DNA from: Catenovulum sediminis
GTDB lineage: Bacteria > Pseudomonadota > Gammaproteobacteria > Enterobacterales > Alteromonadaceae
DNA length: 64,000 bases
Direction: 5' to 3'
Assembly (NCBI RefSeq): GCF_007289895.1
Contig: NZ_CP041661.1
Coordinates: 62,001-126,000 of the forward strand
Positions 28,546-50,600 of this stretch are shown here, piece by piece. The position numbers were made by a program, and so were the translations under genes. Position 1 is the stretch's first letter, and every line of letters starts with the position of its first letter. The notes under the pieces are model-generated. The model saw only the letters and a program-made list of their open reading frames with translations, did not search any database and was not told the DNA's origin.

Positions 28546-30414
28546 TTAATGAACTTGAATGGTGATTTTGTCCTGCACTCCTTGAGTTAAAAATTCAACT
28601 TTACGATTGTCTGCCATCGGTTTGGCATCGTGCCAAGAGTAAACTGAAATTTCGACTTGACCTTTTTGGTGTGCGGTTATTTCGCCAAATTTATTGATAC
28701 TGGCAATGTTTGGATCGCTTGAATGCCAGATAACCCCATCGCGGGTTGTATTCAAAGGGTATACCTGTGCGTCAATATCAAAGGTTTCACCAACAGACAT
28801 GACCTTTTTATCTGCAATAATTTTTACATCAGTAACCGCTTTAATTTGCCGTGCATCGACGACGCTTTTTAAGCGCAACATGGCATCATATTGCTCTGGC
28901 GTTAAACTTTGTAAATCTAAACCAGAATAACGGCGCACACCAAATCTAAGCTCAACAAAACGTTCGCCTTGCGTTTCGTATCTGTCGGTTCGTAAATCGA
29001 AAAAGCGCCCTTGCGGGTAATAAACACTGGGCCCGTAATATTTGAAGTTTTTGTCAAACGCGAATCGAATTTTACGCGGGTCGTTTATTTCATCATAAAC
29101 ACCATTACCAATATACCAGCTGTAAATATGCGATCTGTGCTCGCTGTTTTTCCCCATTATTTGCGGCCAAAAACTAATGCCATCTGGTTTAGTTTCTTCG
29201 GGTACGGGTGTGCCTGTCGCTTCTAACATTGTCGGTAAAACATCGGTTAAGTAGGTTAAACCGTCATAACTTCTCACACTATTCGCATTGTTTTGCTGAT
29301 TAGCTGCTGGCACTGTGCCGGGCTGATTAACAACCATACCGACATGCAACCCCGTATCTGCATTGCCACCTTTACGCGCCGGATATACAGAGCCGTCTGG
29401 CATTACATGATGGAATATCTCTTTTGTACCGTTATCGCCCATCACAATAATCAGGGTTTCTTCCCGCAGGTTCAGTTCATTTAACTTATTAACGACCTTA
29501 CCTATCAATTTGTCTGTATATTCGATCATATCTACTATGTATTTGGGATCATCACCTGTATGGCCGTTTCGACTATGTGGTGTTTCATCAAAATTATCAA
29601 ACAAACTATTGGGTTTAGTATCCGGTGTTGGTTTGTGATCATCATGTACTAACGCCATTGGATAGTATAAGAAAAATGGATTTTGCTGGTTCTGTTCAAT
29701 AAATTTCAGCGCAGCACGATTATACATATCCGGCCCGTACCAACGTCTGCCCGTTTCTGGATCGACGTCAGTTCGCCCTTCATAATTGGTTATTGTGCCA
29801 TTTTCAACTAGATTAGGATTGATAAAACGCTGCCCTTCGGTGACAACATCAAACGCTAAATAATCATCCCAGCCAAATTCTGATATATATTTTTCACCCG
29901 GGATCTGTTGTGTGCCCCGTGTTTGTTTCCACTTTCCATACATGCCCGTGGTGTATCCAGCACGCTTAAAAATATCGCCGAAAGTGATATCCGAATGGTG
30001 CTGTGATTTTGGTTTCAAATAATTACGGTCGTTTTGTTTACCGCTCATCAAGGCGATTCGTGTATTTTCACAAATCGGATGGGTAAAAGCATTTTCAACC
30101 CGTAAACCGGTGCGCGCCAATTCATCAATATTTGGCGTTGCAAAAGTCATATCTTCAAACTGACCTCTTGCAGATCGGATTATATTTGAGCCGTACGTTG
30201 TCATGCCGTAATGACTGAGATCATCAATCAGTATCAATACCACGTTAGGTTGTTTACCGGCTTTTACCAGCGGGCTTTGCCACTTTGCTTGATATTCAGC
30301 CGATTTAGTTTGTTCATTTTTAAGCTTTTTATCAGCAAACTGATGGTCGGCAGAATTTTGACTGCAGGCCGCTAACAACGCGGCGGTGCAGATAAGTGAT
30401 AATATTTTTTTCAT
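28546..30414 (-). CDS. S1-type sulfatase lipoprotein with degenerate active-site motif and Ig-like domain
   Basis: About 622 residues from the ATG at 30414, which has GAGGA 5 bp upstream; the longer frame start overlaps the GH2 gene. Lipobox LLAAC. The sulfatase fold is clear: VLILIDDLSHYG, IVMGDNGTKEIFHH. The Cys that should become formylglycine lies in HPICENTRIALMSGK, where CENTR replaces the usual C-x-P-S-R, so maturation may fail or differ. A C-terminal Big2-like Ig domain (about 535-610, ending WHSSDPNIASINKFGEI) is present. Last gene of the eight-gene operon, 7 bp after GH2. Confidence 0.85.
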   Translation of the reverse strand: MKKILSLICTAALLAACSQNSADHQFADKKLKNEQTKSAEYQAKWQSPLVKAGKQPNVVLILIDDLSHYGMTTYGSNIIRSARGQFEDMTFATPNIDELARTGLRVENAFTHPICENTRIALMSGKQNDRNYLKPKSQHHSDITFGDIFKRAGYTTGMYGKWKQTRGTQQIPGEKYISEFGWDDYLAFDVVTEGQRFINPNLVENGTITNYEGRTDVDPETGRRWYGPDMYNRAALKFIEQNQQNPFFLYYPMALVHDDHKPTPDTKPNSLFDNFDETPHSRNGHTGDDPKYIVDMIEYTDKLIGKVVNKLNELNLREETLIIVMGDNGTKEIFHHVMPDGSVYPARKGGNADTGLHVGMVVNQPGTVPAANQQNNANSVRSYDGLTYLTDVLPTMLEATGTPVPEETKPDGISFWPQIMGKNSEHRSHIYSWYIGNGVYDEINDPRKIRFAFDKNFKYYGPSVYYPQGRFFDLRTDRYETQGERFVELRFGVRRYSGLDLQSLTPEQYDAMLRLKSVVDARQIKAVTDVKIIADKKVMSVGETFDIDAQVYPLNTTRDGVIWHSSDPNIASINKFGEITAHQKGQVEISVYSWHDAKPMADNRKVEFLTQGVQDKITIQVH

Positions 30415-30421
30415 TTTGTCC

Positions 30422-33655
<3,234 letters not shown>

Positions 33656-33759
33656 TTACCAAAAGATCGCTTACAAATATCAATATTTACACATGCAGCA
33701 ATTAAATCATATATAAATCTTAATATCCATATTTGATAGCAATTTCTTTTACAAAACCG

Positions 33760-35682
33760 TCAATGAAGTGTTAAAAGTTTAAACTCGAGCGCCCAATCGG
33801 TTGATTTTTCAGTTAATAAGTTAACCAGCTTTAGTGGCTGTCCATTTCGAATTTCAATGGTTTGCGCTGCATTTTCCCATTGACCTTTTTTCCATTGACC
33901 TTTACGGGGTGAATAAAGACGAAGCGCGTATTGACCATCAGGTAGATCAAATGCCAGTTTTTCGTCCCAACCGCTTGGTAAATACACCAGTGCCCTGTCA
34001 GCTGTCTGAGTCGTTAAACAATATGCCTTGCTGTTAAATCTCGCTGAACAAAAATAATTTAACTGGTGCAGATCGCTTTGTTCAAAAAATTGTTTCGCAT
34101 ACTTAGTTTGTTGCCAAAGCTTATGACGCGAGCGCCAATCTTCAGCGTTTAAATCGTTATGGGCAAACCGGTAACCAAAATACCATTCTATCCCGCTGGC
34201 TTTTTTAAACATTGAAGGCCATAAAACTTGGGTGCGCATATCGTCATGCGTTGGATTGTCTGCATCGGGTCTTGCACCTGTATGCCAAATACCGATTTCA
34301 TCCATGGATATTGCCCATTGATGGCCAGCAGCAAGGGATTTATCACGCCAAATCTGAATATCACGTGCTGCTCGATGCGGCTGATCCACTTGCAAAGAAA
34401 TACCATCAATACTCACTTCGCCTAACAAACCGGTTAATGTTTCTTCTTTGTGTTTTGCGCTGGCATGGCTATGGACTAATACAGGGTGGCGATATGGGTC
34501 ATTCTTTTTAATAAAACGCGCCATTTGTTTAACCTGCTCGGGAGTTTGCCCGTTTGGTGACCACTTTACCGGGCCATTTTCTTCGCCTATGTTCCAGATT
34601 ATGCCGGGAAAATGTGCAAATCTGGCAATCATTTCGCGTAAATACAAGTTGCGCTGATCGCCCATATCACCATTGTCTAATAACAATTCGTTTTCAGTTT
34701 CCTGCAAAATAATATGCATCAACAAACCTTTTTCCTGCATATGGGCAAATACCGCCTGCCATTGCTCTAGTTTGCTCACATCAAAACGGTTAAAAGATGT
34801 ATGATCTAAGTATGGCCAGCTGTCTTTACCGTCGCCACCTATATTCATAGTGATGAAATAAACCGAATTCATATCTTGCGCAGCTAAATAGTTAAGCGCG
34901 CCAACAAGGCCTTTTCCTTTACCGTTTTGCCACGTTAAATCTCCGCTTTGCCAGTCTTTTATATGCGGTGCATATTGGTGTAATTGTTTATCTTGCGCTT
35001 TACCTTCGTCTTTTGTGTCAGGTTGTATTCGGTATGTGCCATCAAAATCCTGATAGCCAAGCAGGTTTTCCGGGCTGTTCGCACCCACTTTTAAAACGGG
35101 CTGATTATCTATCGATGAATAAAAGTAACCGTTTTGCACGGTTAAAAAGCCAATTTGTCGATTTGCTTTGTTTGCTTTGTATGCTTTATTTGCTGCTGTG
35201 TTCGTTGAAACTTTCTGCTCGCTAACCCAAAAGCGACCTTGCAAACCGTCAAATGCAGTCGCTTCCCCTTCAATTAAATTGTTTGATAAAGCGATGTTTT
35301 CTCCGCTATCAAAATGCACTTTATATTGCCATTGACCCGTTAGCTGCGGGGTAAACTTAACACGCCAAATATTGCCAGCTTGTGCAGACGTTTCGCCGGC
35401 ATTCCCATCAGCTGCATAATAACCCCGCACTATCTTTTTTTGTTGGGGGTGGATGAATTCAACCAATACGCGGTAATCGGTAAACGGATTAAGCTGCCCG
35501 TTTTCCTGACTGTCCGGCCCTGTAATATCCAAAGTAAAGGTGTCTAATTTGGCAATTTCAGGTTGTGCTGTGCCAATAGAAAAATTTGCACAAGCACTGA
35601 GCCCCAAGGTTGCACAAAAAAGAATTAAGCAAGAAAGCAGTTTGCTATTGTTTACCCATTTTTTATCGTCATTTGTAAACAT
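33760..35682 (-). CDS. DUF5060-containing putative glycoside hydrolase, lipoprotein
   Basis: 640 residues. Lipobox LSACA. The N-terminal beta-sandwich (about 40-130, FTDYRVLVEFIHPQ and WQYKVHFDSG) is the DUF5060 module. A TIM-barrel-like middle (about 240-530) has GIIWNIGEENG and QWAISMDEIGIWHTG, where the two Glu/Asp-Glu positions look like a clan-A acid/base and nucleophile. A C-terminal beta domain follows. Substrate unknown; genomic context suggests a sulfated galactan. It lies 12 bp downstream of a sulfatase gene. Confidence 0.75.
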   Translation of the reverse strand: MFTNDDKKWVNNSKLLSCLILFCATLGLSACANFSIGTAQPEIAKLDTFTLDITGPDSQENGQLNPFTDYRVLVEFIHPQQKKIVRGYYAADGNAGETSAQAGNIWRVKFTPQLTGQWQYKVHFDSGENIALSNNLIEGEATAFDGLQGRFWVSEQKVSTNTAANKAYKANKANRQIGFLTVQNGYFYSSIDNQPVLKVGANSPENLLGYQDFDGTYRIQPDTKDEGKAQDKQLHQYAPHIKDWQSGDLTWQNGKGKGLVGALNYLAAQDMNSVYFITMNIGGDGKDSWPYLDHTSFNRFDVSKLEQWQAVFAHMQEKGLLMHIILQETENELLLDNGDMGDQRNLYLREMIARFAHFPGIIWNIGEENGPVKWSPNGQTPEQVKQMARFIKKNDPYRHPVLVHSHASAKHKEETLTGLLGEVSIDGISLQVDQPHRAARDIQIWRDKSLAAGHQWAISMDEIGIWHTGARPDADNPTHDDMRTQVLWPSMFKKASGIEWYFGYRFAHNDLNAEDWRSRHKLWQQTKYAKQFFEQSDLHQLNYFCSARFNSKAYCLTTQTADRALVYLPSGWDEKLAFDLPDGQYALRLYSPRKGQWKKGQWENAAQTIEIRNGQPLKLVNLLTEKSTDWALEFKLLTLH

Positions 35683-35694
35683 GTGTTTTCCTTT

Positions 35695-37683
35695 TTAGTG
35701 ACCTAAATATTCTATGTATAGATAAAACGCGGCTTTTTCATGCGTTAACTGTACCCGGTCGTTCGTAAACCAAGCGCTCACTTTCTGTTGTCCAGCTTGT
35801 GCATCAACAACTATCTCGCAGTAAGATGCTCTGCCATAGACGTTTTCAGTGTAGGTTTTATCACCTAGTTTTATAGCACAATATTGGGTGTTTATCGGTG
35901 TACCTGCCGGTTTGTCATGATAATAGGCACGAATTCGATAGCGCCCTGATTGCTCGACATTAATATACCAAGGCAAAGCTGTGTATTTGTCTTCTTCGCC
36001 TAACCAGTGTACATAGTCATATTCGGGCGCAGCTGGCTGATGTCCAATAAACCAAGGCACGGGCTGCCCTTTCGGCACCTCCATCCAATCCATGGCATTT
36101 AAGCGAGCCGGATTTTCTGCTGGGTTACCAACGTTAATAAATCTGTCTTTAAAACCAGCTTGCGCCAGTGCAGCAAACCAATTTACACGCGTTTGATTCA
36201 TCTGTTGTGCGATTTTTATCATCTCACTTTCAACTTGCAGATTAGGTTTATCTTCGTGATTAAAATTTAACCCTTGTAACAAATTCTGTTTTTGTAATGG
36301 GTCTTTTTCAATATGATAAAGTTCGGCTTTTTGCCCACTTGTAATGTAACGCCATGGGCCTTTTAATACTGCGGTTGGCCTTTTGATACTCGGGTCATAT
36401 ACTCTTTGATTCGTGACAACCACGCTGCGGTTTTTTAATGCGGGTTGCTGTCCTTGGGTTAACAAAGGTTTTAAGCTAACCCCATCTATTTCGCTGTCGC
36501 TGACATTACTGCCAATTAAATCTAATAAGGTTGGCAATACATCATAATGGGCGGTTAATTGGTTAAAGTTCTGCTTTTTTAAATTTCCATTTGGATAATA
36601 AATTAAAAAAGGTACTCTATGCCCACCTTCATATACCTGACCTTTGTAGCCAGAATAGCCGTTGTTAGGCACCCAGTTCGGAAATTTTTCCGCAATTTTT
36701 TGCCCACGCGGCGTGAGCTTGCCACTGTGAGTGGGGCGATAAGAACTGCCATTATCTGTCATATAGATAAATATTGTGTTCTCTTCCTGACCTGTTTTTC
36801 TTAATGTTTCTCTTAATCGTTCAACTTGCTCGTCAATGTAGGTGATCATGCCGTAAAAGGTTGCGACCTCATTGGATAACCCCATATCTTCATACTGGCT
36901 GACATATTCCGTTGGCGCTCGATACGGCCCGTGCGGTGCGTTAAGTGCAATATAGGCAAAATAAGGTTGCTCTTGTGGTTGCTGAATAAAATTGATTGCT
37001 TCGTCAAACCACACTTTAGTTGCATAACCTGAAAAAAACTCCGGCTTACCGTTACGATAATAAACATCATCAAATTGCGTATTGCCCCAATAATCCGGTG
37101 TTTGTCCAACGCCGCCACCGCCGTGTATGACGGATAAATCAAATCCTTGATCTTGTGGCCGATACGGATAGTTATCGCCTAAATGCCATTTGCCGAAAAT
37201 TGCGGTTTGATAACCATTATCTTTAAGTTCTTCTGCTAATGTTTGATGTTCTGGCCCCAGCATATAGCGGCCCAGAATGGTATGCCAGACGCCGGCTTTT
37301 AATGAATGTTTACCCGTTAATAAAGCCGCACGTGTCGGCGAGCAGGTTGGGTCAACATGAAAATTGGTTAAAGCTGTCGATTGTTGCGCAAGTTTATCTA
37401 AATTAGGCGTTTTAATAATCGGGTTTTGGTTAAAGCCAATATCTCCTATCCCTTGATCATCTGTCACAATTAACACGATATTCGGTTTTTGTACGTTACT
37501 TTTTCTAATATGGGCTGCATTGTTATTTGCGCTGGAGTTGCGACTATCCACGCCGGAATGAGCCGTGCCAGAATTAGCCACGCCGGAATTAGCCGCGTTG
37601 ACCGGTATATTTAAACAGGCTGCCAGACAAACCAGCAGGCTGGTTATCATCCATATCTTAAATTTATTATGATTTTTGTTCAT
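35695..37683 (-). CDS. S1-family sulfatase, secreted
   Basis: 662 residues. Signal peptide, then a low-complexity Asn/Ser/Gly/Ala linker, then the sulfatase core. Metal-binding NIVLIVTDDQGIGD, formylglycine motif CSPTRAALLTGKH (canonical CxPxR) and MTDNGSSYRP are present. A C-terminal domain of about 130 residues (from about 540) looks like an extra beta-sandwich. It should remove sulfate esters from glycans in the periplasm, given an FGE-type activator elsewhere. Operon with DUF1501 upstream and DUF5060 downstream. Confidence 0.93.
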   Translation of the reverse strand: MNKNHNKFKIWMITSLLVCLAACLNIPVNAANSGVANSGTAHSGVDSRNSSANNNAAHIRKSNVQKPNIVLIVTDDQGIGDIGFNQNPIIKTPNLDKLAQQSTALTNFHVDPTCSPTRAALLTGKHSLKAGVWHTILGRYMLGPEHQTLAEELKDNGYQTAIFGKWHLGDNYPYRPQDQGFDLSVIHGGGGVGQTPDYWGNTQFDDVYYRNGKPEFFSGYATKVWFDEAINFIQQPQEQPYFAYIALNAPHGPYRAPTEYVSQYEDMGLSNEVATFYGMITYIDEQVERLRETLRKTGQEENTIFIYMTDNGSSYRPTHSGKLTPRGQKIAEKFPNWVPNNGYSGYKGQVYEGGHRVPFLIYYPNGNLKKQNFNQLTAHYDVLPTLLDLIGSNVSDSEIDGVSLKPLLTQGQQPALKNRSVVVTNQRVYDPSIKRPTAVLKGPWRYITSGQKAELYHIEKDPLQKQNLLQGLNFNHEDKPNLQVESEMIKIAQQMNQTRVNWFAALAQAGFKDRFINVGNPAENPARLNAMDWMEVPKGQPVPWFIGHQPAAPEYDYVHWLGEEDKYTALPWYINVEQSGRYRIRAYYHDKPAGTPINTQYCAIKLGDKTYTENVYGRASYCEIVVDAQAGQQKVSAWFTNDRVQLTHEKAAFYLYIEYLGH

Positions 37684-37812
37684 TTTTACTCTGATTTTTT
37701 CTAGTTATTCGGCATTCAAACTGCACTTTATTTATATATGGATGTTACATTTTAAATACAATTCCGTAAAGTCTAAATGCCGAATTTCAGAGTAAAGTTA
37801 TGCGAGTGAAAC

Positions 37813-39234
37813 CTATGCCAATATATCTTTGATGATCTTGCCATGTACATCGGTTAAACGAAATCTACGCCCTTGATATTTAAAGGTTAATTTTTCGTGT
37901 TCGACCCCCATCAAATGCAGCAAAGTGGCTTGAAAATCATGAACATGGACAGGATCTTTAGTCACGTTATAGCCAAAATCATCCGATTCACCATAACTCA
38001 TACCCGGTTTCACACCGCCACCGGCCATCCACATCGTAAAACACCCCGGATGATGATCGCGCCCATAGTTGCTTTCGGTCAGTTTTCCTTGCGAGTAATT
38101 AGTTCGGCCGAATTCTCCACCCCAAACCACTAATGTGTCGTCTAATAACCCGCGTTGTTTTAAGTCAGTCACCAAAGCAGCCGAAGCCTGATCGGTTTTT
38201 TCACACTGGTTTTTAATGCCTCCCGGCAAATTGTCATGCTGATCCCAGCCTTGGTGGTACAATTGTATAAATTTGACGTTTCGTTCAGCTAAACGACGGG
38301 CCAGTAAACAGTTCGCAGCATAAGTGCCCGGATTACGCGAATCTGGGCCATATAAATCAAACACCCAATCTGGCTCGTCTGAAAAATCAGTGACATCTGG
38401 TACGGAAGATTGCATACGTTCGGCCATTTCGTACTGGGCAATACGTGATTTAATTTCTTCATCATGCCACTTAGCATATTCTGCTTCATTCAGCTTACGC
38501 AAATGCTGCATCAAATCTTTACGTATACTCAAATCTAAACCTTTCGGGTTATTTAAATACAATACAGGTTCTTTTCCCCCTCTAAATTGCACCCCCTGAT
38601 GAATTGACGGTAAAAAGCCGTTACCCCATAAACGCGAATATAACGGCTGGCCACCTGAGTTTTTTGAAACCATCACAATAAACCCCGGTAAATTCGGGTT
38701 ATCCGTGCCAAGTGCATAATTCAGCCACGCACCCATGCTGGGGCGACCCGCTATCGGAAAGCCGGTTTGTAAAAATGTAATCGCCGGATCGTGGTTAATT
38801 TGATCTGTGTGCATTGATTTAACAAAACACAAATCGTCAACGATTTTAGCCGTGTGTGGTAATAACTCACTGACCCAAGCACCGGATTCTCCATGCTGAT
38901 TAAAATTATAAATAGAGCCGGCCAAAGGCAGTGACGATTGCTGCGCACTCATACCGGTTAGAACCTGATCGCCTCTGACTTCAGCGGGTAATTCCTGCCC
39001 CTGCATTTTGTTCAACAATGGTTTGTAGTCAAAAGTTTCTAATTGAGATGGCCCGCCACTTTGAAATAAATAAATCACACGTTTGGCTTTGGCCGGTTTA
39101 TGCGGCGCACCTAAAATACCGTTTGAAGCTAAACCGGATAAATCTTTCGCCATCGCGAAATTAGGTACCTGTGATAAAGCTGCAGCGCTTAAACCACCCG
39201 CCGTATTACGTAAAAATTGTCGTCTGTTCATCAT
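37813..39234 (-). CDS. DUF1501 protein, Tat-exported
   Basis: 473 residues. The N-terminus MNRRQFLRNTAGGLSAAAL is a twin-arginine signal. The body matches DUF1501, a branch of the alkaline phosphatase/sulfatase superfamily (YLFQSGGPSQLETFDYKP, VVWGGEFGRTNYSQG, GRDHHPGCFTMWMAGGGVKPG). DUF1501 genes usually pair with DUF1549/DUF1553 genes in Planctomycetes, as here (36 bp after it). Biochemical function is unknown. Tat export implies folding, perhaps with metal, in the cytoplasm. Confidence 0.9.
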   Translation of the reverse strand: MMNRRQFLRNTAGGLSAAALSQVPNFAMAKDLSGLASNGILGAPHKPAKAKRVIYLFQSGGPSQLETFDYKPLLNKMQGQELPAEVRGDQVLTGMSAQQSSLPLAGSIYNFNQHGESGAWVSELLPHTAKIVDDLCFVKSMHTDQINHDPAITFLQTGFPIAGRPSMGAWLNYALGTDNPNLPGFIVMVSKNSGGQPLYSRLWGNGFLPSIHQGVQFRGGKEPVLYLNNPKGLDLSIRKDLMQHLRKLNEAEYAKWHDEEIKSRIAQYEMAERMQSSVPDVTDFSDEPDWVFDLYGPDSRNPGTYAANCLLARRLAERNVKFIQLYHQGWDQHDNLPGGIKNQCEKTDQASAALVTDLKQRGLLDDTLVVWGGEFGRTNYSQGKLTESNYGRDHHPGCFTMWMAGGGVKPGMSYGESDDFGYNVTKDPVHVHDFQATLLHLMGVEHEKLTFKYQGRRFRLTDVHGKIIKDILA

Positions 39235-39270
39235 CTTTTTCCTGCAGTCTGACTTTAGGTTGCACTGCTT

Positions 39271-42200
39271 TTAGCGCTTTATAACGGCAGCATCATGGCT
39301 GACCAACATATTGCTAACTGAACTTAATGCGGCCAATTGAATCGCATCTAATTTTGTATCCGCTGCACTTTCGCCGATTGCTAATAACGAATGTGCTTTT
39401 TCCGGATGCGTGCTAAAACTTTGGTAGACATCCTGATACATCTCTAACAGCACTTTTTGTTGTGCTGCGCTGGGCATGCGACTGGTCAGCATTTTAAATA
39501 GTTGAGTGAGCTGATTTGCTGGACGCTTTTCGTGCAGCATCACCTTTTCGGCAAGCACTCGGCTGGCTTCAACGATTTGCGGATCGTTTAACAAAGTTAA
39601 AGCTTGCAAAGGTGTATTGGTTTGCTGGCGCTGGCCAATACTGTGTCCGCGCATTGGCGCATCAAAGTTGGTCATATTCGGCGGCGGTGCGCTGCGTTTG
39701 TATATGGTATATAGGCTGCGTCGATATAACTCATCGCCACTGCCCTGCTGGTAATCCATATTATTCATTTTCCAAATACCATCCGGTTGATATGGATGGA
39801 CACTTTTACCGCCAATTTTATCCACCAATAAACCACTGACTGCCAGTATGTTGTCTCGTAGCATTTCAGCCGTTAATCGCTGCGCAGACATTCGGGCAAA
39901 TAAAGTATTCTCCGGATCTTTTTGCAGCAATTTTTCACTGGTTTTTGAAGATTGTTGATAGGTTGCAGACGTCACCATTAATTTGACCAGATGTTTAAGA
40001 TCCCAGCCTGATTCAATAAACTCAACCGCTAACCAATCTAACAACGCCGGATGTGTTGGTCTTTTGCCCTGATTCCCAAAATCTTCAGGTGTACGTACAA
40101 TGCCGTTACCGTAAAACATCTGCCAATAACGATTAACCAACACTCTTGAAACCAACGGATTATTTTTATCGGTTAGCCACTTAGCTAACCCCAAACGATT
40201 TTTCGGCCAGCTCGGATCAAAAGGCAATATTGTTTCAGGCACACCCGGCTCAACGGGCTCACCGTGATTAGCATATCCCCCCCGCAGCAAAATATAGGCT
40301 TGTCGTGGTGTTTTCATTTCTTGCATAACCATCACTTCCTGCACTTGCTCTTGCGTTTCATTTAAACGCAAACGCGTTGCTGTTAACTGTGCTTTTTGCT
40401 GTTTAAAATCATCGTTATGACGCAGGTTGTAATGTGCCAGTAAAACTGCTTCGGGCAGCTGTTTTAGCTTGTTTAATGGTTTATCTGTGGTTATTGCCAT
40501 TAACTCTAATGGGCTGAGTTGGTCCTGATAAACTTTTAAATTATCCACCATTGCACCGGCCACTCCGCGGCTTCGCCAGCGTGCGCCCACTTTAAATGCA
40601 ATCTCTTTTAATACATTGGCTTTGCTGTGTTTAATTTCTTTGTACAGATTATCGCGCTCAACCTGCATCTCAACAGGTTTACCATTGATGTAAAATTGCA
40701 CGCCCGCCGCTTTTGACGAGCCATCATAAGAAAACGCAATATTTAGCCATTGTTCTCTCGCAACCGGTTTGCGTGATTTAAGTGAAATCGCATTGTAGGG
40801 GTAAGTATGCGCCAGACGCACATGCCAGTGGTTGTTCTCTATGCCAACATCAAACCCTTTGTAGTTATATAAAATGCCTGCTTTGTTGTAATGAAATAAC
40901 ACACCTTCTTGCAAATCGTCCGGCAACCAAGCTTGGATACTGACCGCAAAACTTTGACCGCGTTTAAAGTCATTTAAGTGTGGAAAATACAGCGCATCAT
41001 CACCATTGAGTTTAATCGCTTCGCGGCCTGTGCTCTGCTCGCTGAAATATTGCATTTTGGGGCCATCTTTTTTGTTGATATTGGCACCAAAAATAACTTT
41101 ACCTAACTGCGCATCTGAGCCTGCGGTTGCCCGTTTATTGTGTATTTTGCGGTTATTGTCTTGTTTAGAAAAAGGATAATCTGCCAACAGCAGCGACTGG
41201 CCGCTAAAATCAACCTGTTGCGTCTCTAAATTTTTATACCATTTTTGATAACCGGACGATTTCGCCGAGATTTGCTCAATTTTTTTAAGTGCTTGCAGTT
41301 GCTCAGCCTCTTGTCTTCTTAAATCATTTAACAACTGCTTTTGGTTTTCATCTGGTAGTAACATAGTTGGCACGGGCATATCATTCGCATCGTAAGATAT
41401 CTGCCCGGACTCATCTATATTGTTGAAAAAGGCGGTGGTTTGATAATATTCTTTGGCTGATATCGGATCATATTTATGATCATGACATTGTGCACAATGC
41501 ATGGTTAAACCTAACAAACCGGTTCCTAACGTTTGTACTCTGTCTTTTACATACTCAACTCTGAATTCTTCATTGACGATACCACCTTCACCGTTTTGTG
41601 CATGTACCCGGTTAAAGGCCGTTGCTAACCTTTGTTCAACACTGGGTTCAGGATATAAATCGCCGGCAATTTGCCAACTAATAAACTGATCAAATGGCAT
41701 ATTACGGTTAAAACTTTTGATAACCCAATCACGATAAGGCGACATGTCACGATAATAATCTGTGCTGTACCCATGGGTATCGGCGTATCGCGCAACATCT
41801 AACCATTCTTGTGCCATACGTTCACCAAAAGCCGGACTCGCCAATAAACGATCGACTACTTTTTGATAGGCGTTTTTATCCTTATCCTGAACAAAATTTT
41901 CGACTTCTTGTGGTGTTGGCGGCAAGCCCGTTAAATCAAAGGTGATACGCCTTATTAAACTCACTTTGTCAGCCACTTCGTTGGGCGCAAACTGATTATC
42001 TTCGATACGCTTTAAAATAAACTGATCTATCGGATTTTTAACCCACTGTGTTTGTTTTACATTTGGTAACGGCTGCTTTTCAGGCTGAATATACGCCCAG
42101 TGTTGTTTGTATTCTGCACCTTGCTCGATCCACTTTTTGATAATCGCTTTATCTCGTGCCGACAATTTAAGGTTGGAGCTTGGCGGTGGCATGATAAAGT

Positions 42201-42516
42201 TTTCATCATCTGACATTATGCGCAAAAATGCTTCAGATTGTGTTGGTTCGCCCGGTGTAATTGCGGCCATTTTAAGATCGGTCATATGCTGGGTAGCATG
42301 TTCAAAGGTATCTAAACTTAAACCGGCTTTCGCGTTAGGTTTGTCAGGCCCATGACATAAAAAACAGGTATCAGATAATATAGGCTTTACATCAAAGTTA
42401 AAGTCGACAACATCCGGTATCGGTTGCTCAAACGCTTGTTGCTTTGATTCCGGTTCACTAAAACAGCCGCTCAAGGCAAGCAGCATTGCACAAGGTAAAA
42501 ATAACTTAGCTCGCAT
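39271..42516 (-). CDS. PSCyt1-DUF1549-LamG-DUF1553 cytochrome lipoprotein
   Basis: 1081 residues. Lipobox LSGCF. A planctomycete-type cytochrome c domain (about 40-110) has the haem motif CFLCH. DUF1549 follows (about 150-360), with a second CAQCH motif at MHCAQCHDHKYDPIS. A LamG/concanavalin-like insert (about 470-660) precedes DUF1553 (about 740-1050). This architecture is hallmark of Planctomycetes and Verrucomicrobia. Two CxxCH motifs indicate haem c binding in the periplasm. Role in glycan breakdown is unknown; electron transfer or oxidative cleavage is a possibility (speculation). Confidence 0.92.
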   Translation of the reverse strand: MRAKLFLPCAMLLALSGCFSEPESKQQAFEQPIPDVVDFNFDVKPILSDTCFLCHGPDKPNAKAGLSLDTFEHATQHMTDLKMAAITPGEPTQSEAFLRIMSDDENFIMPPPSSNLKLSARDKAIIKKWIEQGAEYKQHWAYIQPEKQPLPNVKQTQWVKNPIDQFILKRIEDNQFAPNEVADKVSLIRRITFDLTGLPPTPQEVENFVQDKDKNAYQKVVDRLLASPAFGERMAQEWLDVARYADTHGYSTDYYRDMSPYRDWVIKSFNRNMPFDQFISWQIAGDLYPEPSVEQRLATAFNRVHAQNGEGGIVNEEFRVEYVKDRVQTLGTGLLGLTMHCAQCHDHKYDPISAKEYYQTTAFFNNIDESGQISYDANDMPVPTMLLPDENQKQLLNDLRRQEAEQLQALKKIEQISAKSSGYQKWYKNLETQQVDFSGQSLLLADYPFSKQDNNRKIHNKRATAGSDAQLGKVIFGANINKKDGPKMQYFSEQSTGREAIKLNGDDALYFPHLNDFKRGQSFAVSIQAWLPDDLQEGVLFHYNKAGILYNYKGFDVGIENNHWHVRLAHTYPYNAISLKSRKPVAREQWLNIAFSYDGSSKAAGVQFYINGKPVEMQVERDNLYKEIKHSKANVLKEIAFKVGARWRSRGVAGAMVDNLKVYQDQLSPLELMAITTDKPLNKLKQLPEAVLLAHYNLRHNDDFKQQKAQLTATRLRLNETQEQVQEVMVMQEMKTPRQAYILLRGGYANHGEPVEPGVPETILPFDPSWPKNRLGLAKWLTDKNNPLVSRVLVNRYWQMFYGNGIVRTPEDFGNQGKRPTHPALLDWLAVEFIESGWDLKHLVKLMVTSATYQQSSKTSEKLLQKDPENTLFARMSAQRLTAEMLRDNILAVSGLLVDKIGGKSVHPYQPDGIWKMNNMDYQQGSGDELYRRSLYTIYKRSAPPPNMTNFDAPMRGHSIGQRQQTNTPLQALTLLNDPQIVEASRVLAEKVMLHEKRPANQLTQLFKMLTSRMPSAAQQKVLLEMYQDVYQSFSTHPEKAHSLLAIGESAADTKLDAIQLAALSSVSNMLVSHDAAVIKR

Positions 42517-42517
42517 A

Positions 42518-43681
42518 TTAAACCCGTTCTAACTTGATTGGATAAGCTTGATTGGCGTTCCATTGGCCAACATACAAATTTTCATTCTCATCCACACACA
42601 CAGCATGACAATGGTTAAATACGTCAAAGGTGCTTTGCATAGGCTGAAGAATGCCATTTTTATAAACGGGCTCAGTGCCTCCCGGATTCGATACCACCCG
42701 ATTGTTTTTATCTAATATGGTGATAAACCCTGAATTTTGCGTGCGTTTGCCATCCACTTGCGACCAACAGACGGGCGCGTAAAAGTGCTCGCCTTTGTAA
42801 ACCGGGCCGCCGACATAAGCGCCGGGTAAATTTAGGTTAGAGCGAAACTTTCCGTCCATCGAAAAAGATTTTAACTGTCTGTGTTCGCGTGAACTGACCA
42901 GTAAATGCGGGTCGTTCGGATTACGTAAATCAACGCCAATACCATGTGTATTAACTAAATTCATATTGGCATCTGTATTATTGCGCCCGCCCCAATGACG
43001 TATATAACGACCGTGCGTATCGTACTGAATCACATAGTCTGAACCATAACCGTCAGTGACATATAAATCCCCATTAGGTGCAATTGCGATATCTGTTGGA
43101 TTAAATGGCATACCCGGTTTATATATACCGATGTGCATTGGATGGCCTAGGGTGTAAATTAATTTACCGTCAATGGTTAATTTAGACACAAAACCGGTTT
43201 GTTTAACCCACTTGCCTTTCCATTGATTACTGGTGCGGTGACGGTTGAGTATCCAGCCGCCGTCAACGATATAAATGACGTCTTCGCCATTTTCGTTAAC
43301 CACTTTGACCGAATGCGCGCCCGGGTGTTGTGTTCCCCAAGCATCTAGCAGCTTGCCGTCTTTGTTATAAACAATAAAATTATTAACATCACTGTCGGTG
43401 CACATAATAATGCGCCCTTTAGAGTCCACCGCTAATCCATGGGTATTTTCAACCGGATGTGTATGTGGGTTTAGATCGCCCCAGTGATAATTTACTTTGT
43501 ATTTAAAATCACCATGACCAATTATTTGACCATGCGCACTGCGCAGTGCCGACTCCGGCGGATGTTTTTTATCAGGCTCGTGCGCAGAGACCTTAAGCGC
43601 CGCACCTGAAATAAAGGCACTGGCGCCCAGCACGGATGCACCTTTGATAAAATCACGTTTGCTGGTTTGAATGTCCGTCAT
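42518..43681 (-). CDS. NHL-type six-bladed beta-propeller, Tat-exported
   Basis: 387 residues. Tat-like signal (SKRDFIKGASVLGASAF). Repeats of the NHL/SMP-30-like propeller occur throughout: HGLAVDSKGRIIMCTDSD, FNPTDIAIAPNGDLYVTDGYG and HAVCVDENENLYVGQW. Start overlaps the upstream stop (ATGA at 43678-43681), and the next gene begins 1 bp later, so translation is coupled. Could be a carbohydrate-binding or lyase/lactonase-like propeller; function not identifiable. Confidence 0.82.
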   Translation of the reverse strand: MTDIQTSKRDFIKGASVLGASAFISGAALKVSAHEPDKKHPPESALRSAHGQIIGHGDFKYKVNYHWGDLNPHTHPVENTHGLAVDSKGRIIMCTDSDVNNFIVYNKDGKLLDAWGTQHPGAHSVKVVNENGEDVIYIVDGGWILNRHRTSNQWKGKWVKQTGFVSKLTIDGKLIYTLGHPMHIGIYKPGMPFNPTDIAIAPNGDLYVTDGYGSDYVIQYDTHGRYIRHWGGRNNTDANMNLVNTHGIGVDLRNPNDPHLLVSSREHRQLKSFSMDGKFRSNLNLPGAYVGGPVYKGEHFYAPVCWSQVDGKRTQNSGFITILDKNNRVVSNPGGTEPVYKNGILQPMQSTFDVFNHCHAVCVDENENLYVGQWNANQAYPIKLERV

Positions 43682-45123
43682 AATGATTCTCTTTCTTTAA
43701 AAGGTAAATTAAAAGGTAAATTAGCAGGTGAATTAGCAGGTGAATTAGAGGGCAAGGCTGCAATCACATTGATATGTTGTTTGGCTTGTGTTTCTAGCCA
43801 ATTTTGCAACGCAGTTGCGCTAACGTTAGATTCGGCTAAATAAAGCTGTTTTAAAGATTTAAACTGGCTGAGTATCGCCAGTGCGCCGTCGTCGACCTGA
43901 GTTTGATACAAATTTAAATAGCTTAGATGCGGTAATTGGCTTAACCCTGTCAGTGCGTTGCTGCTGATCGGGTTCTTCTCTAAACGTAATTTTATTAGGT
44001 TCGTCAGTTGACTGAGCTGTGCGACTTGCACATCGCTTACTTGGCTGTTTGCCAGATTTAACCAAACAACATAATCTTTAGCTTTTAACAACGCCTGCAT
44101 CGCTTGCTTACTCAATGCCCGACGCGCAACTGAATAATCTAAATCGATATACTGCACATCGTGTGAAATCTGCTTGACGATAAATCCGGCCTGTGTCAAT
44201 TCAGTCGCAATAGCTTGCGGCAGTGGCGAAATATCATCCAGTGGCCATGCGTCTTTACCCTTTTGCAAACCCAGTGTTCTTGCTAGAACCTGTTTATCTT
44301 TATCTGCTAAGTTAAACTCAGATAGCAGCCCACTGGCCGGTGCTCCTTGCTTAATCCACCACGCTATTGATGCGATTTGCGTATCGCTTAACGGCGGTTT
44401 CCCCCCTGCCGGCATAAACTTTTTATCATGGCTGTCTAAACTGATTCGCACGAACAATTCACTGGCCTGCGCGTCACCAGGCACAATCGTGTTACCTGAT
44501 TGCCCACCTTTTAATACTAAATCATAGTGACTTAAATCCAGCTTACCTTTGCTTTTATCCGAGTTATGGCAAGCAACGCAACGCTTTTGCAAAATGGGTT
44601 GCACAACATCTAAATACACATCTGCATCTTCCAGTTTACTGACCGCCGCGCGGGGTTTTGCATGCGGTTCAAGGCCCGCTAAGCTGCGTATCGGATTCGG
44701 TGCATAATCAAACAAATAAGTGGAACCGTGAGTCATATTTGCGCCGTAATGACCTGTTGAAAATAAAAGAAATAATTGACAGGTGCATAACGCAGTTACC
44801 AATGTCGCAGGTAAATTTTTCTGCGAAAAATTTGAGAAAAGTATCCAACAGATCAAAGCACAAGCAATGACTGCAAATGCGAACATTTTGTGGATCCACA
44901 CTGCCTCATCACTATACCCACCACTCAGCGACAACATATACCCCAACACTGCCGCAGCAGCAGCTGATAACAGCCCCCATAACCAAATAGTATTTAATGT
45001 ATTGCTTCGCTGCTTTTTGAAAAATAAGCAATTAAGTTCTAAAACGGCTGCCATCAGTAAGATACCAATCGGCAAATGCAAAACCAGAACATGGAAGCGA
45101 CCGAAAAATTGAATTAGGTCCAT
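43678..45123 (-). CDS. membrane c-type cytochrome with leucine-rich repeats
   Basis: 481 residues. Four or more N-terminal transmembrane helices (about 10-155, DUF2231-like: FHVLVLHLPIGILLMAAVLEL) precede a planctomycete-type cytochrome c domain with haem motif CVACH (PILQKRCVACHNSDKSKG). Leucine-rich repeats follow (about 345-450: LTNLIKLRLEKNPISSNAL). It ends in a short NSPANSPANLPFNLPF tail encoded by tandem 12-mers. First gene of the operon, so perhaps the membrane electron-transfer partner of the cytochrome lipoprotein at 39271. Confidence 0.88.
   Translation of the reverse strand: MDLIQFFGRFHVLVLHLPIGILLMAAVLELNCLFFKKQRSNTLNTIWLWGLLSAAAAAVLGYMLSLSGGYSDEAVWIHKMFAFAVIACALICWILFSNFSQKNLPATLVTALCTCQLFLLFSTGHYGANMTHGSTYLFDYAPNPIRSLAGLEPHAKPRAAVSKLEDADVYLDVVQPILQKRCVACHNSDKSKGKLDLSHYDLVLKGGQSGNTIVPGDAQASELFVRISLDSHDKKFMPAGGKPPLSDTQIASIAWWIKQGAPASGLLSEFNLADKDKQVLARTLGLQKGKDAWPLDDISPLPQAIATELTQAGFIVKQISHDVQYIDLDYSVARRALSKQAMQALLKAKDYVVWLNLANSQVSDVQVAQLSQLTNLIKLRLEKNPISSNALTGLSQLPHLSYLNLYQTQVDDGALAILSQFKSLKQLYLAESNVSATALQNWLETQAKQHINVIAALPSNSPANSPANLPFNLPFKERESL
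43700..43747 (-). repeat. four tandem 12-bp repeats at the 3' end of the cytochrome gene
   Basis: On the plus strand, two copies of AAAGGTAAATTA are followed by two of GCAGGTGAATTA, 48 bp in all. They encode the repeated N-(L/S)-P-(F/A) tail of the cytochrome/LRR protein. Copy number could vary by slippage in units of four residues without changing frame. Confidence 0.9.
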
Positions 45124-45658: not shown

Positions 45659-45664
45659 GTGGCC

Positions 45665-46267
45665 ATGCCTAACTTAAAGTTTGATTTACCCGTATTTGTT
45701 TTCATCAGTAGTTTTCTTTTAGGCTGTGGCGCTACATCGCAAACTGCAACCCCGTCTGCTCCAGTAAAAAACAAAACAGTTAAAACACAAAATACAGCGC
45801 AAAATTTACTGGCCTACGCCAATGTTGGATTTGAAAAACCGCTGGATGGCCAATTTCCAAAAGCACGCACTGATGCAGGGCAAATTAACAAAGCAGAATT
45901 TGGCTTAATGCAAGAAGCTGCTAAATCAGGTAAATTCGGCTTAGGGGTCGTTTTAGAAAAAGGTGACTTTAAAGTCCAATACGGTATTTGGCGACTCAAA
46001 AATAAAATTGATGCGAGTAAAAAATACCGATTTGAGTTCGACGTATTTTTGTTATCGGGTCACGCGCAGTTTTTTTCGCAAGTTGATAACTCTCCTTGGC
46101 AACGCTCACCTATTCAGCCATTAGCGCAATGGCAAGTGGTTGGTACAACAATCGATGGTCAGTTTTTAACAAAGGGCAAACCGTTAAATATGCACATAGA
46201 CAATATAAAAGGTAAAGAGCCCGGTGTATTGCTGGTTGATAATGTGCGCTTATATGAAATCAACTAA
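45665..46267 (+). CDS. small lipoprotein with CBM-like beta-sandwich
   Basis: About 200 residues from the ATG at 45665, preceded by AGAGG; a GTG 6 bp upstream is an alternative. Lipobox LLGCG. After a linker, residues about 50-200 resemble a jelly-roll carbohydrate-binding fold (NVGFEKPLDGQFPK, KYRFEFDVFLLSG, LLVDNVRLYEI), similar in style to CBM4/CBM9 modules. No catalytic motif. Placed just before the AraC gene; probably surface glycan binding. Confidence 0.6.
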   Translation: MPNLKFDLPVFVFISSFLLGCGATSQTATPSAPVKNKTVKTQNTAQNLLAYANVGFEKPLDGQFPKARTDAGQINKAEFGLMQEAAKSGKFGLGVVLEKGDFKVQYGIWRLKNKIDASKKYRFEFDVFLLSGHAQFFSQVDNSPWQRSPIQPLAQWQVVGTTIDGQFLTKGKPLNMHIDNIKGKEPGVLLVDNVRLYEIN

Positions 46268-46370: not shown

Positions 46371-47237
46371 TTGATTAAGCCCGAAAAATTTGAAACCGGA
46401 TCAGGTGGTTTTGTTTGGCAAAATATTTCATCTGATTCGATATTTTCAGACTTAAGAATGCATTTGTATTATGCCTATTATATGCAAACCGATAGTAGCT
46501 GGGCTGGCAGCCAATTTGTTAACCATTACAACCGCATCTATTACGTCGAATCAGGCGAAGCTGAATTATATTTTAATAAACAAAGTATAAAAATGCGGCC
46601 TGGGCATTTGTATTTAATCCCGCCCTACACTTTAAACTCCCACACTTGTAGCGGTAAACTTAATTTTTACTGGGCACATTTTCATGCACTGGTCAGCGGC
46701 GATTTAGATTTATTTTCATTGTTTGCAGAGCCGAAAGAAATTAAAGCAAACGATCCGGCAGCGGTACAAAGTCAGTTTGATAACTTAGTCGAATCGGTTG
46801 CTCGGCACCCGGATAAACCCAGTGAAATTTTCAACCGAAATAGCCTGTTAAACCAATTATTACTCCCTTTTATAAACGATATGGGAGAACGTTTATCACA
46901 AGCTGATTATGTCGGCTACACGCAATTTTTACCCGTGTTACAGCACATTCAGAACAATCTGGCATCCTCGCTCAAAGTTGGCGAATTGGCTGAACTCGCC
47001 AATATGAGTTTAGAGCATTTTTCCAGACGGTTTAAATACGAATTTAATATCTCGCCTAAACGCTACATTTTACAAAAACGCATGGGGCTTGCGAAACAAC
47101 TCTTATTGTTAAGTGGGTTATCAATCAGTCAGATTGCTACAAGTTGTGGTTTTCCGGATGTATATCACTTCTCTAAAACTTTTAGCCATGAAATGGGACG
47201 ATCACCAAAAAGTTATCGTTTAAACTACAAAAAGTAA
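46371..47237 (+). CDS. AraC-family transcriptional regulator
   Basis: 288 residues. N-terminal cupin-like sensing domain (about 30-160, YYVESGEAELYFNKQ and GHLYLIPPY) and a C-terminal double helix-turn-helix (about 190-288, ELAELANMSLEHFSRRFK and CGFPDVYHFSKTFSHEMG). The start is TTG at 46371. Such regulators usually activate adjacent glycan genes upon sugar binding; both the divergent sulfatase operon and the downstream PL6/VCBS genes are candidates. Confidence 0.88.
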   Translation: MIKPEKFETGSGGFVWQNISSDSIFSDLRMHLYYAYYMQTDSSWAGSQFVNHYNRIYYVESGEAELYFNKQSIKMRPGHLYLIPPYTLNSHTCSGKLNFYWAHFHALVSGDLDLFSLFAEPKEIKANDPAAVQSQFDNLVESVARHPDKPSEIFNRNSLLNQLLLPFINDMGERLSQADYVGYTQFLPVLQHIQNNLASSLKVGELAELANMSLEHFSRRFKYEFNISPKRYILQKRMGLAKQLLLLSGLSISQIATSCGFPDVYHFSKTFSHEMGRSPKSYRLNYKK

Positions 47238-47678: not shown

Positions 47679-50600
47679 GTGAACCGTAAACTAATAAAGA
47701 AAAACATGATCACCCTGTCAATGATGATGTCGCTGGCTGCGTGTGTTGAATTCGATATCAATGATGATACAAATGAAGAAAATACCCCCGCAGTTATCAC
47801 AGGCGAAGATACCAAATCACTTAGTGTAGACGTTTCACAAGATTTAACCGGCTCTCTTTATGTGACGGATGATGACGAGGGTGAGGCTTATTTTAAAGAA
47901 TTAAACGGCGAAATAACCACCTACGGTCATTTTTCAATCTCAAAACAAGGTTCATGGACTTACACATTAGATACCAGCCATCCAGACGTCAGCACGCTAG
48001 ATTCAAAAACTGATTCAATCATCGATACGATTACCGTAACGTCTGCTGACGGAAGCAGTCATCAAATCATGATTACCATTGTTGGGGTAGACAAACCAAC
48101 AAATACCCCAGCTTCAATTTCAGGTTTAGAAAAAACCATCACAAATACACAATCAGACGAAGTTGAAGGTGAAATTTACATTCATGATGCCGACAGCGAT
48201 GACGAAGAAGCCGCTATCGCTGAAACTGATATCACCACAACCTACGGCACATTCTCTATTAACGTCGAGGGTGAGTGGACATATAAATTAGATACAACTG
48301 AAAGCTCTGTTGCGGCTTTGGCATCGGCAAGTGAAACGCTAACCGACAAAATAACAGTCAGCTCAGTAGATGGCACAACGGCTGAATTAGTGATCACCAT
48401 TACCGGCGTTGATCCGGTCGTAGTTGATACAACACCGGTTTCTGGTGGAGACAGCGTACCTGATGTCAATTGTACTCAAGTGGTCAGTTCAATTTCAGCA
48501 CTAGAAGATGCGGCGGAAGATTTAGTCGCCGGTGATACTTTATGTTTAGCCGATGGTACTTATACAGGTGATCTTGAATTACGGGTAGAAGGCATAGGTA
48601 CAAAAGCACAACCGATTACGGTAGCAGCAGAGAATCCGGGTCAGGCAATTATTACCGGCGGCGAAATATCTGCGCGTTTAGGTGGCGAATACATCGTATT
48701 ACAAGGTTTTGTTTTTCGGGACGGAGAATCAGGCAGCTCCATTATAAAATTTGAAAAAGAAACCGAATGTAGCTACTGCCGCGTAACAGAGGTCTCGATT
48801 ATTGATATGGATGGCGGCGACTATAGTAGCTCAAAATGGATTGAATTTTATGGCCATCATAATCGTGTTGACCATAGTTGGTTTTCGGGTAAAGAGTCGC
48901 GTGGTGCACTCATGGTACTGCCCCGCTGGACCTCAGAAAGTGATTTTAATACAAATGGCTTCCCTGCTGATTACGCGCAAATAGACCACAACTATTTTGG
49001 TGATCGTCCACCCGCGTTTGGTCAAGCCTATGCAGGCAGCAGTGATAACGAATACGAAGGCATTCGTTTAGGTTTAAGCACCACACATTCAGCCCCTTCT
49101 TATTCTATTGTAGAAAACAATTACTTTGAGCGCATTCAGGGTGAAGCTGAAATCATTTCAAACAAATCGGCCAATAATATTATTCGTAACAACACGGTAC
49201 GCGATAGTAACGGTTCAATCGTAACCCGCCACGGTGCAGAAGCCACCATCAGTAACAATTTTATTTTTGGTGATGACAACCCGTTCGCTGGTGGTATTCG
49301 ATTAGTTGATGACGGCCATATCGTAACCAACAACTATATAGAAGGTGCGCGCTATTTAAGTTCAAACTGGAACGGAGGCATCGTTTTAACCACAGGCGAT
49401 GGAGCAGGTGACACAGATAATGGTTACCAAAATGTCGAGAATGTATTTATTGCCCACAACACCATAGTAGACAGTGTAAACAGTTTGAATGTCTACGGTG
49501 GTAAAAATGACGAAGCCCCTGAAAATATTTATTTTGTAAATAATATTATTGCAGATGCAATTGGCCCAGTGATTCGAACGAATGGCGAAGATATGCCCGC
49601 CAACTCTACTTATGATGGCAACTATGTGTTTGGCCAATCTTTAACCGACCAAGACACCTTAACTGCCATTTCGGGTTTTGTTGAAGTCGATGCTGAGTTA
49701 GAAAAAAGCACAGATGGTTTATATCGCCCCACTACAAATAGCCCAAGTTTAACGGCCGCAATTATAAATACCGGTGATTTTACGATGCCAACATCCGATA
49801 TGGACGGACAACCCCGTTCAGCCGCGGTTGCACTTCGCGCCGGTGCGGATGAAATTTCTTCTGATGCGATTTTGCTGGCTCCCAAAAGCCCAGCGGATGT
49901 AGGCCCAAAAAACTATCGCCCAACCCCAGGCAAGATTTATGTCGAAAACGTCAATATTGTAAATCACGATTTTGACACGGGTGATTTTACCGGTTGGACA
50001 AACAATGGTGCGACCATTACCACAGCAAGCGACGAAGTTTTTTCTCGCGGCAAAAGCTTAAAACTAGATAGCAGCGCAGCCAACGTGACCCAAACAGTAA
50101 ACTTGCACGCCAATACAAATTATACCTTGTCTGCATTTATGAAAGGTGCAGCAAAACTCGCCATTACGGTAGATGGGCAAACGTATGCAGCAGAAAGAAG
50201 TTCAACGTCTTATGGTTTTGAAGCGGTAAGCTTTAATTCAGGTAATGCAACTTCGGCCGTGATTACCGCCATGGTTGATGATTTTGTCACCAATAAAGCG
50301 CCGATTATCAACCCGAATTTCGATGAAGACCAAGACGACTGGATTGTCGTAGAAGGTAGAGGTTTAGGTCAGGTTCAAGATTCAAGCAACTCAGCAGGCG
50401 GCGCAGATGGCTCTATTAAGTTTAAATGGAACGCCGGTGAAGATACCGGAACGCCGCATAATCCGTATATCGCCCAAACCATCGCAGTAGAGTCAAACAC
50501 TGATTATAGTCTGTCAATTTACAACCTTTACAAAGAAGATGACAACGATTCTTCGATCGTCTTTGGGGCTTCTACCGATGCGGATATCAGCAACACAACC

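Follow-up and report, generated by a model that had tools for sequence, protein, structure and literature searches.

A conserved four-gene module with predicted haem proteins beside variable glycan genes in Catenovulum sediminis

The gene block and its two units

The sequence analysed here, referred to as the window, is a stretch of 64,000 nucleotides from Catenovulum sediminis that corresponds to positions 62001-126000 of contig C2 (NZ_CP041661.1; C2:62001-126000). This contig measures 759 kb and is one of the two that make up the 4.87-Mb genome. Within the window, the list of open reading frames (ORFs) contains exactly eight on the minus strand at positions 28546-45123, as the initial annotation had claimed, and the domain calls made there for the encoded proteins proved correct (Pfam; NCBIfam for the GH2 protein). 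The block is real, and it is composed of two units: a core of four genes (37813-45123), which encode a membrane cytochrome, an NHL protein, a lipoprotein with the domains DUF1549, LamG and DUF1553, and a DUF1501 protein, and a variable cargo of glycan genes.

In the order of transcription, the core opens with the gene for the membrane cytochrome (43678..45123, minus strand, as are all eight genes). According to Pfam and our alignment, this protein has a DUF2231-like part with four transmembrane segments, a PSCyt1 haem c motif (C182xxCH, with M237) and leucine-rich repeats (LRR), and we propose it as an electron carrier between the membrane and the periplasm. Its gene overlaps by 4 bp that of the NHL propeller (42518..43681), a protein with a Tat-type start whose aligned pocket residues resemble those of PAL and which may be a metal-dependent lyase or a partner protein. 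A gap of 1 bp separates this gene from that of the lipoprotein (39271..42516), which combines PSCyt1, DUF1549 (with the motif CxxCHxHxxD), LamG and DUF1553 (Pfam, alignment and AlphaFold2 (AF2) model) and is the proposed catalytic dihaem subunit. The DUF1501 gene (37813..39234) follows after a gap of 36 bp; its product is predicted to be Tat-exported and to adopt a fold of the sulfatase/alkaline-phosphatase type (Pfam, AF2, Foldseek), and it has no formylglycine motif.

The cargo consists, by Pfam, of a sulfatase with the motif CSPTR (35695..37683), a putative glycoside hydrolase with DUF5060 (33760..35682), a LacZ-type GH2 beta-galactosidase (30422..33649), which also scores above the NCBIfam cut-off for beta_gal_Bga2A, and a second sulfatase with a Big_2 domain (28546..30468), whose motif, CENTR, deviates from C-x-P-x-R in our motif check. 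No SusC/SusD pair is present among the eight genes (Pfam). The tight packing attributed to the block was borne out at five of its seven junctions, namely those given above, the 12-bp gap between the first sulfatase and DUF5060, and the 47-bp overlap between GH2 and the last sulfatase, where the start codon is uncertain, but not at the DUF1501/sulfatase and DUF5060/GH2 junctions, where the gaps are 129 bp and 110 bp. No minus-strand terminator-like site is listed inside these two larger gaps, and a single promoter-like site (37777-37749) lies within the DUF1501/sulfatase gap. Because promoter-like and terminator-like sites occur at about the same frequency in shuffled sequence, the cargo may be transcribed separately.

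Recurrence of the four-gene core

Does the block recur as a whole? We compared 42 loci selected by PF07583 (39 loci, two more of the window's own genome, and the window itself), so that DUF1549 is present in 42/42 by construction; close kin (L037/L038) and overlapping loci (L062/L075) are among them. DUF1501 is found in 41/42, a PSCyt1-LRR or short PSCyt1 protein in 38/42, and NHL in 33/42 by phmmer or 35/42 by BLAST clustering. Because the core recurs at many loci, it is not a chance grouping, and the four genes constitute a conserved module that occurs in several separate lineages. The initial annotation had treated all eight genes as a single system. This view is ruled out, because the glycan genes differ between loci: at the 15 loci of type A, the window included, a sulfatase is present in 7/15 and GH2 in 4/15, and just the four core genes are conserved.

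Type A has the membrane cytochrome, NHL, DUF1549/1553 and DUF1501 genes described above. Beside the module, the window carries on the plus strand an AraC-type regulator gene (HTH_AraC in Pfam; 46371..47237) and, between this and the module, a gene for a small predicted lipoprotein that has no Pfam match (45659..46267). A close relative of the regulator lies within the stretch at 10/14 other type-A loci and is directly divergent from the module at nine. Each of the 15 type-B loci has DUF1549/1553 and DUF1501 together with genes for a short PSCyt1 protein and cytochrome b561; NHL is present in 12/15, and 8/15 carry an AraC-type gene whose N-terminal part is long. All four core genes are also held by the Bacteroidota loci L011 and L018.

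PF07583 scores above its cut-off in 20/395 genomes of Alteromonadaceae, with one to six matches per positive genome, in 3/394 of the order, and in 1/274 of a sample of the class, where the sole positive is the window's own genome. Matches number 1-9 in six Bacteroidota genomes and 119, 59 and 2 in three planctomycete genomes; the families, which had been called typical of Planctomycetes, are indeed repeated in some of these. The two other copies in C. sediminis look damaged (G000:C2:319050-319663 in L034 and G000:C2:380408-381681 in L033), DUF1549 being interrupted by stops in one, and DUF1501 being divided between two frames in the second. A tryptophan-halogenase-family flavoprotein is encoded near the module at L033:14049-15575 (Pfam), and the same BLAST cluster is represented in L039 and L055.

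Membrane cytochrome and predicted dihaem lipoprotein

In type A, the membrane cytochrome contains four hydrophobic segments. Across 25 aligned sequences, H11, H16, H78 and H125 are invariant, as are the haem c motif (residue 182) and M237, and H132 is conserved at 92%. In type B, a separate cytochrome b561 gene adjoins that of the short PSCyt1 protein; its BLAST cluster covers all 15 loci of this type and two others, and PF01292 matched 14/117 type-B neighbour ORFs scanned, from 14 loci (this Pfam tally took 117/137 neighbour ORFs of type B and, from the 93 ORFs of the other types, single proteins). Moreover, L022, a metagenome-assembled genome of a sediment gammaproteobacterium, encodes a fusion protein that joins a b561 domain (102 bits) with PSCyt1 and LRR. 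The occurrence of b561 in place of the DUF2231-like domain is the best evidence for electron exchange between the module and the membrane. A periplasmic redox step, as suggested by the initial annotation, remains the best reading and is strengthened by this partner.

The lipoprotein has a lipobox, LSGC, read from the sequence, and two CxxCH motifs, at residues 51 and 341. Its Pfam scores for DUF1549 (295.5 bits, cut-off 29.8) and DUF1553 (336.1 bits, cut-off 28.5) both exceed the curated cut-offs, and by these scores it belongs to the PSCyt2/PSD1 family; PSCyt1 and Laminin_G_3 are matched as well. The DUF1549 motif reads CAQCHDHKYD in the window and conforms to CxxCHxHxxD in 52/52 aligned sequences. 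Because the first haem motif is absent from the tested stretch in 6/52, the DUF1549 motif would be the constant one. For the putative PSCyt1 haem, M109 is present in 98% of the 46 sequences having the first motif. The nearest named relative of the protein, at 71% identity, is on plasmid pG7 (contig of 769 kb) of Gayadomonas joobiniege, and the next, at 59-63%, are from Paraglaciecola, Catenovulum, Agaribacter, Colwellia, Pseudocolwellia and Alteromonas.

The AF2 model of this protein (pLDDT 85.6) was compared with the Protein Data Bank (PDB) in a Foldseek-type search. The 50 rows listed are by name lectin-like jelly rolls, with TM-scores to the query of 0.14-0.16, the second being domain 4 of the arabinanase AbnA; such matches are to be expected from the LamG part. 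None of these 50 rows is a structural relative of the haem core. At the sequence level, the only PDB match was a weak one to FoxE (E 0.024), covering the first haem, and no Pfam match to CCP_MauG was obtained at E 0.001.

NHL propeller and DUF1501

The NHL protein matches PAL, the lyase domain of peptidylglycine alpha-amidating monooxygenase (3fvz), with an E of 2e-6 as a single sequence and 2e-16 as a profile. Its residues Y212, H246 and R265 align with Y163, H199 and R215 of the 3fvz chain, which we take to be the catalytic Tyr654, the zinc ligand His690 and Arg706 of PAL. Two further histidines, H123 and H359, match places of PAL zinc ligands by blade position only, and His81 stands where PAL presumably has an arginine. 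Among 27 aligned NHL proteins, the most distant of which share 21% identity, none departs from H81, H123, H246, H359, D210, Y212, R253 or R265, and a loose pattern, DGY-H-R, occurs in 35/35. A solo NHL protein with this signature is encoded in one of the random control regions (L152:18802-19875); by eye, its neighbours are cytochrome-c-like ORFs and a b561-like ORF, and the stretch has no DUF1549 match.

DUF1501 scores 526 bits in Pfam and has a twin-arginine start, read from the sequence. Its AF2 model (pLDDT 82.9) matches S1 sulfatases in Foldseek with E values of 3e-7 to 3e-5 and a probability of 1.00, at TM-scores of only 0.29-0.40. Residues S63, D69, H148, D331, H333, E374, D393 and H394 are conserved at 98-100%, and the formylglycine motif [CS]xPxR occurs in the first 130 residues of 0/50 aligned sequences, which rules out an ordinary formylglycine sulfatase. 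Judged by its model, DUF1501 is sulfatase-like without being a formylglycine sulfatase.

Ancestry of the module

From where might these genes have been acquired? In a tree of DUF1549/1553 (FastTree, 119 rows), type A is one clade with support 100 and is joined, again with support 100, to a group of eight rows from Bacteroidota, of which seven are distinct and which include Flavihumibacter and Dyadobacter. The type-B rows likewise form a single clade, placed elsewhere beside a row from a planctomycete (support 90); for the remaining 12 Alteromonadaceae rows, seven label changes are required. In a tree of DUF1501 (quick IQ-TREE, 83 rows), type A is again one clade (99), lying in a group (96) that also holds eight rows from Bacteroidota and one further row from Alteromonadaceae. 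Both trees are midpoint-rooted, with long branches flagged. These placements suggest several acquisitions of the module family, and outside Gammaproteobacteria the closest kin of the window's copy seem to be Bacteroidota. The nesting inside Planctomycetes that the initial annotation had proposed to look for was not recovered for either protein of type A, and a direct planctomycete donor for type A is unsupported.

A possible function and its alternatives

What might the module do? We propose, as a reading that we consider about evenly balanced between right and wrong, that it encodes a quinone-linked haem enzyme complex of the periplasm, which would modify carbohydrates oxidatively and whose genes are placed here within a sulfated-polysaccharide operon. 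The membrane b-type cytochrome (four-His and DUF2231-like here, b561 in the sister modules) would exchange electrons with the quinone pool, and the PSCyt1 haem of the membrane cytochrome would pass them to or from the His/Met PSCyt1 haem of the lipoprotein. The DUF1549 haem might then perform chemistry on a sugar gripped by the LamG domain, after which the NHL propeller, with its PAL-like pocket, would break the activated bond and DUF1501, with its sulfatase fold, would process or bind the product.

The neighbourhood of the module bears on the proposed substrate. Sulfatases are found in 14/42 loci, as compared with 5.97 expected if they were spread evenly per genome (P about 0.001); the loci were counted from BLAST clusters and from phmmer searches that took the window sulfatases as queries (E 1e-8), and the expectation was taken from per-genome PF00884 counts (E 1e-15). 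As a control, 20 regions of 20 kb were drawn at random, 17 of these coming from four genomes that have long contigs, and compared only with the window proteins; the window sulfatases matched 0/20. Near the module, a sulfatase is present at 6/14 other type-A loci, and at five of these the sulfatase at 35695..37683 is the best match. The commoner neighbour families in the Pfam tallies include sulfatase, GH2, GH43, GH78, GH88 and PF06439 (3-keto-disaccharide hydrolase). The glycan link of the module is real, but it is not obligatory: the co-occurrence with sulfatases envisaged by the initial annotation stands as an enrichment and fails as a rule, none being found in 28/42 stretches.

Several observations weigh against the proposed complex. 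First, besides these 28 stretches, one genome (G499) has the module and no sulfatase at E 1e-15, and the enrichment probabilities are too small, because of kin and overlapping loci and the general clustering of catabolic genes. Second, PF06439 genes within 5 kb of a module number 2 as compared with 0.6 expected (P 0.12), and among the best 150 rows of Bacteroidota, 0 lie within 10 kb as compared with 1.1 expected (genome size fixed at 4.8 Mb; 63 module sites, each gene counted without its further pieces). Third, the DUF2231 match of the membrane cytochrome (20.5 bits) is below the Pfam cut-off of 26.4, the sixth ligand of the DUF1549 haem is represented by candidates only, H822 (92%) and H139 (90%), and TRIM-family NHL domains, none of which we know to be an enzyme, score equal to or above PAL against the NHL protein.

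The stretches in which no sulfatase was found would also suit an envelope complex that serves electron transfer or structure, has no direct chemistry on glycans and hitchhikes in catabolic islands. It might be a branch of respiration or a scaffold at the surface, or have the role in intracellular membranes suggested earlier for the DUF1501 module of PVC bacteria. LRR, LamG and NHL also act as interaction modules. We nevertheless consider such a complex unlikely, given the AraC-type regulator kept at 10/14 other type-A loci, the enrichment of sulfatase and PF06439 genes nearby, the strict conservation of the NHL and DUF1501 pockets, and the occurrence of the module in Alteromonadaceae, which to our knowledge have no such intracellular membranes. 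The preference of the DUF1501 module for bacteria of the PVC group having intracellular membranes, as described in excerpts of PMC4452313, is a point in its favour.

Within a carbohydrate-altering complex, electrons might either leave the sugar or be delivered to oxygen, and the neighbouring PF06439 genes suggest the first direction. The dihaem protein, as a cytochrome-linked sugar dehydrogenase, would take electrons from a sugar hydroxyl and pass them to quinone, and PF06439 enzymes or the NHL propeller would then cut the 3-keto-glycoside. In Alteromonadaceae, 10 PF06439 genes lie within 10 kb of 43 sites (at 9 sites), as compared with 1.2-1.3 expected; this test took 125/147 rows, without the 22 weakest (<60 bits); among the latter, the row in G425:C2 (21 bits, below cut-off) is approximately 5.5 kb from a module. 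A single BLAST cluster stands beside three types of module: type A (L037:3531-4445, L039:4143-5099 and L052:2681-3550), type B (L033:3688-4620) and a third type (L055:16790-18517). Its L037 member is a PF06439 relative of approximately 300 amino acids, for which no PDB match was obtained. The b561 partner would be compatible with this route as well. However, the enrichment is not significant within 5 kb, and because of the Bacteroidota result the PF06439 link is not general; together these exclude PF06439 as a universal partner. Haem by itself rarely dehydrogenates sugars, the window block has no PF06439 match, and the module has no flavin or NAD domain (Pfam). The genetics of the glycoside 3-dehydrogenase LacABC and the DUF1080 hydrolase, as far as presented in the excerpts of PMC9007349, are a precedent for periplasmic, membrane-linked sugar oxidation, to which the PF06439 neighbours of the module correspond; unlike LacABC, the module has haem proteins only and no flavin-type (GMC) domain (Pfam of the block). 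We regard this dehydrogenase route as possible though doubtful, and we give the oxygenase direction equal weight.

In that other direction, the complex would be a haem oxygenase or peroxygenase: electrons from quinol would reach the DUF1549 haem and activate O2 or H2O2, a C-H beside O or N on the glycan (for example, in an O-methyl or N-acyl group) would be hydroxylated, and the propeller would dealkylate the product. Cytochromes of the b561 type often withdraw electrons from quinol or ascorbate pools, and the PAL-like residues of the NHL protein point the same way. On the other side, no oxygen-binding feature is evident, the dihaem protein has no CCP_MauG match (Pfam), and PAL is not the top-scoring NHL relative. 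The chemistry of PHM and PAL is a precedent (excerpts of PMC6529398), and PSCyt genes are described as denser in epilimnion genomes (excerpts of PMC5615132).

A more specific form of the proposal would make the module a haem-built bacterial counterpart of the peptide-amidating pair PHM/PAL, in which the DUF1549/1553 haem, supplied by quinol, would oxidise a carbon atom in a glycan or its substituent and the NHL protein, as a PAL-like metal lyase, would break the bond. The NHL protein resembles PAL in its propeller and in the aligned Tyr, His and Arg; in contrast to the PAL system, it has no copper monooxygenase domain, and TRIM NHL domains score as well. We hold this version to be improbable, and less probable than either direction taken broadly.

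Other features of the window

Elsewhere, the window encodes lyases of the alginate-lyase-2 and chondroitinase-B types, GH43, GH115, a GDSL esterase and a third sulfatase, together with an aldolase/dehydrogenase and a xylose-isomerase-like gene. By the pathways known to us, we take this enzyme set to fit a rhamnose- and uronate-rich sulfated polysaccharide. Cadherin-like repeats are present in a pair of secreted proteins (47679-50888 and 50978-52423), the first of which is a chondroitinase-B-type lyase. By eye, the adjacent ORFs at 21091-21687 and 21744-22481 (plus strand) look like halves of one sugar kinase gene, presumably of the rhamnulo/fuculo type, which suggests a frameshift or a sequencing error. 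Beyond the island, transposase-like ORFs are present at 58062-58913 and 62348-62824 (IS3 OrfB-like and IS91-like by eye).

Relation to earlier reports and significance

Genes of this kind had been reported before, and the block, which the initial annotation named as its strongest candidate for an undescribed system, is not the first. According to the excerpts available of He et al. (2017; PMC5615132), PSCyt genes of Verrucomicrobia with LamG-type modules stand beside sulfatases, and PSCyt2 genes usually adjoin an unknown gene family; the function is stated there as not known. A study of Rhodopirellula, in its excerpted text, counted 41 copies and suggested redox reactions (PMC2754498). Kamneva et al. 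(2012), as cited in excerpts of PMC4452313, PMC4960237 and PMC5122149, had already reported a DUF1501 genomic module, which is preferentially found in PVC bacteria with intracellular membranes. DUF1501 also pairs with DUF1800 beside chitin synthases in Dickeya/Pectobacterium (excerpts of PMC5122149), a further setting in which it accompanies carbohydrate genes.

That the role of these families is undescribed agrees with the literature searched, in the excerpts of which no function for PSCyt, DUF1549, DUF1553 or DUF1501 was found (including PMC5615132, PMC5673643, PMC2754498, PMC4452313, PMC4982196, PMC4960237, PMC11495043 and PMC5122149). Nor did we find in it the four-gene unit of Alteromonadaceae or its kinship with Bacteroidota, a b561 partner or fusion, PAL-like residues in NHL, or a sulfatase fold for DUF1501. 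With the PSCyt/PSD (planctomycete-specific cytochrome and domain) genes of Rhodopirellula and of freshwater Verrucomicrobia, as excerpted in PMC5615132 and PMC2754498, the module shares PF07635, PF07583, PF07587, the LamG fusion and the sulfatase neighbours; it differs from them in its Alteromonadaceae host, in the NHL and membrane cytochrome genes of the unit, in the nearby AraC-type regulator and in the low number of PF07583 matches, one to six per genome. With the DUF1501 module of PVC bacteria, likened here through the descriptions in excerpts of the citing papers (PMC4452313, PMC4960237, PMC5122149), it shares a conserved cluster around DUF1501 with signal peptides, whereas that module is tied to intracellular membranes.

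PF07583 reaches 119 matches per planctomycete genome, whereas here these families form a small, regulator-linked set in culturable marine Gammaproteobacteria, and the b561 partner and fusion, together with the PAL-like propeller, point to a testable electron route. If the comparison with PHM and PAL were true, the module would be an oxidative system for cleaving or trimming glycans, and it would explain why some planctomycetes have PSCyt/PSD/DUF1501 genes in numbers from tens to somewhat above one hundred. An agar-degrading alteromonad could answer a question that is masked by redundancy in the planctomycetes.

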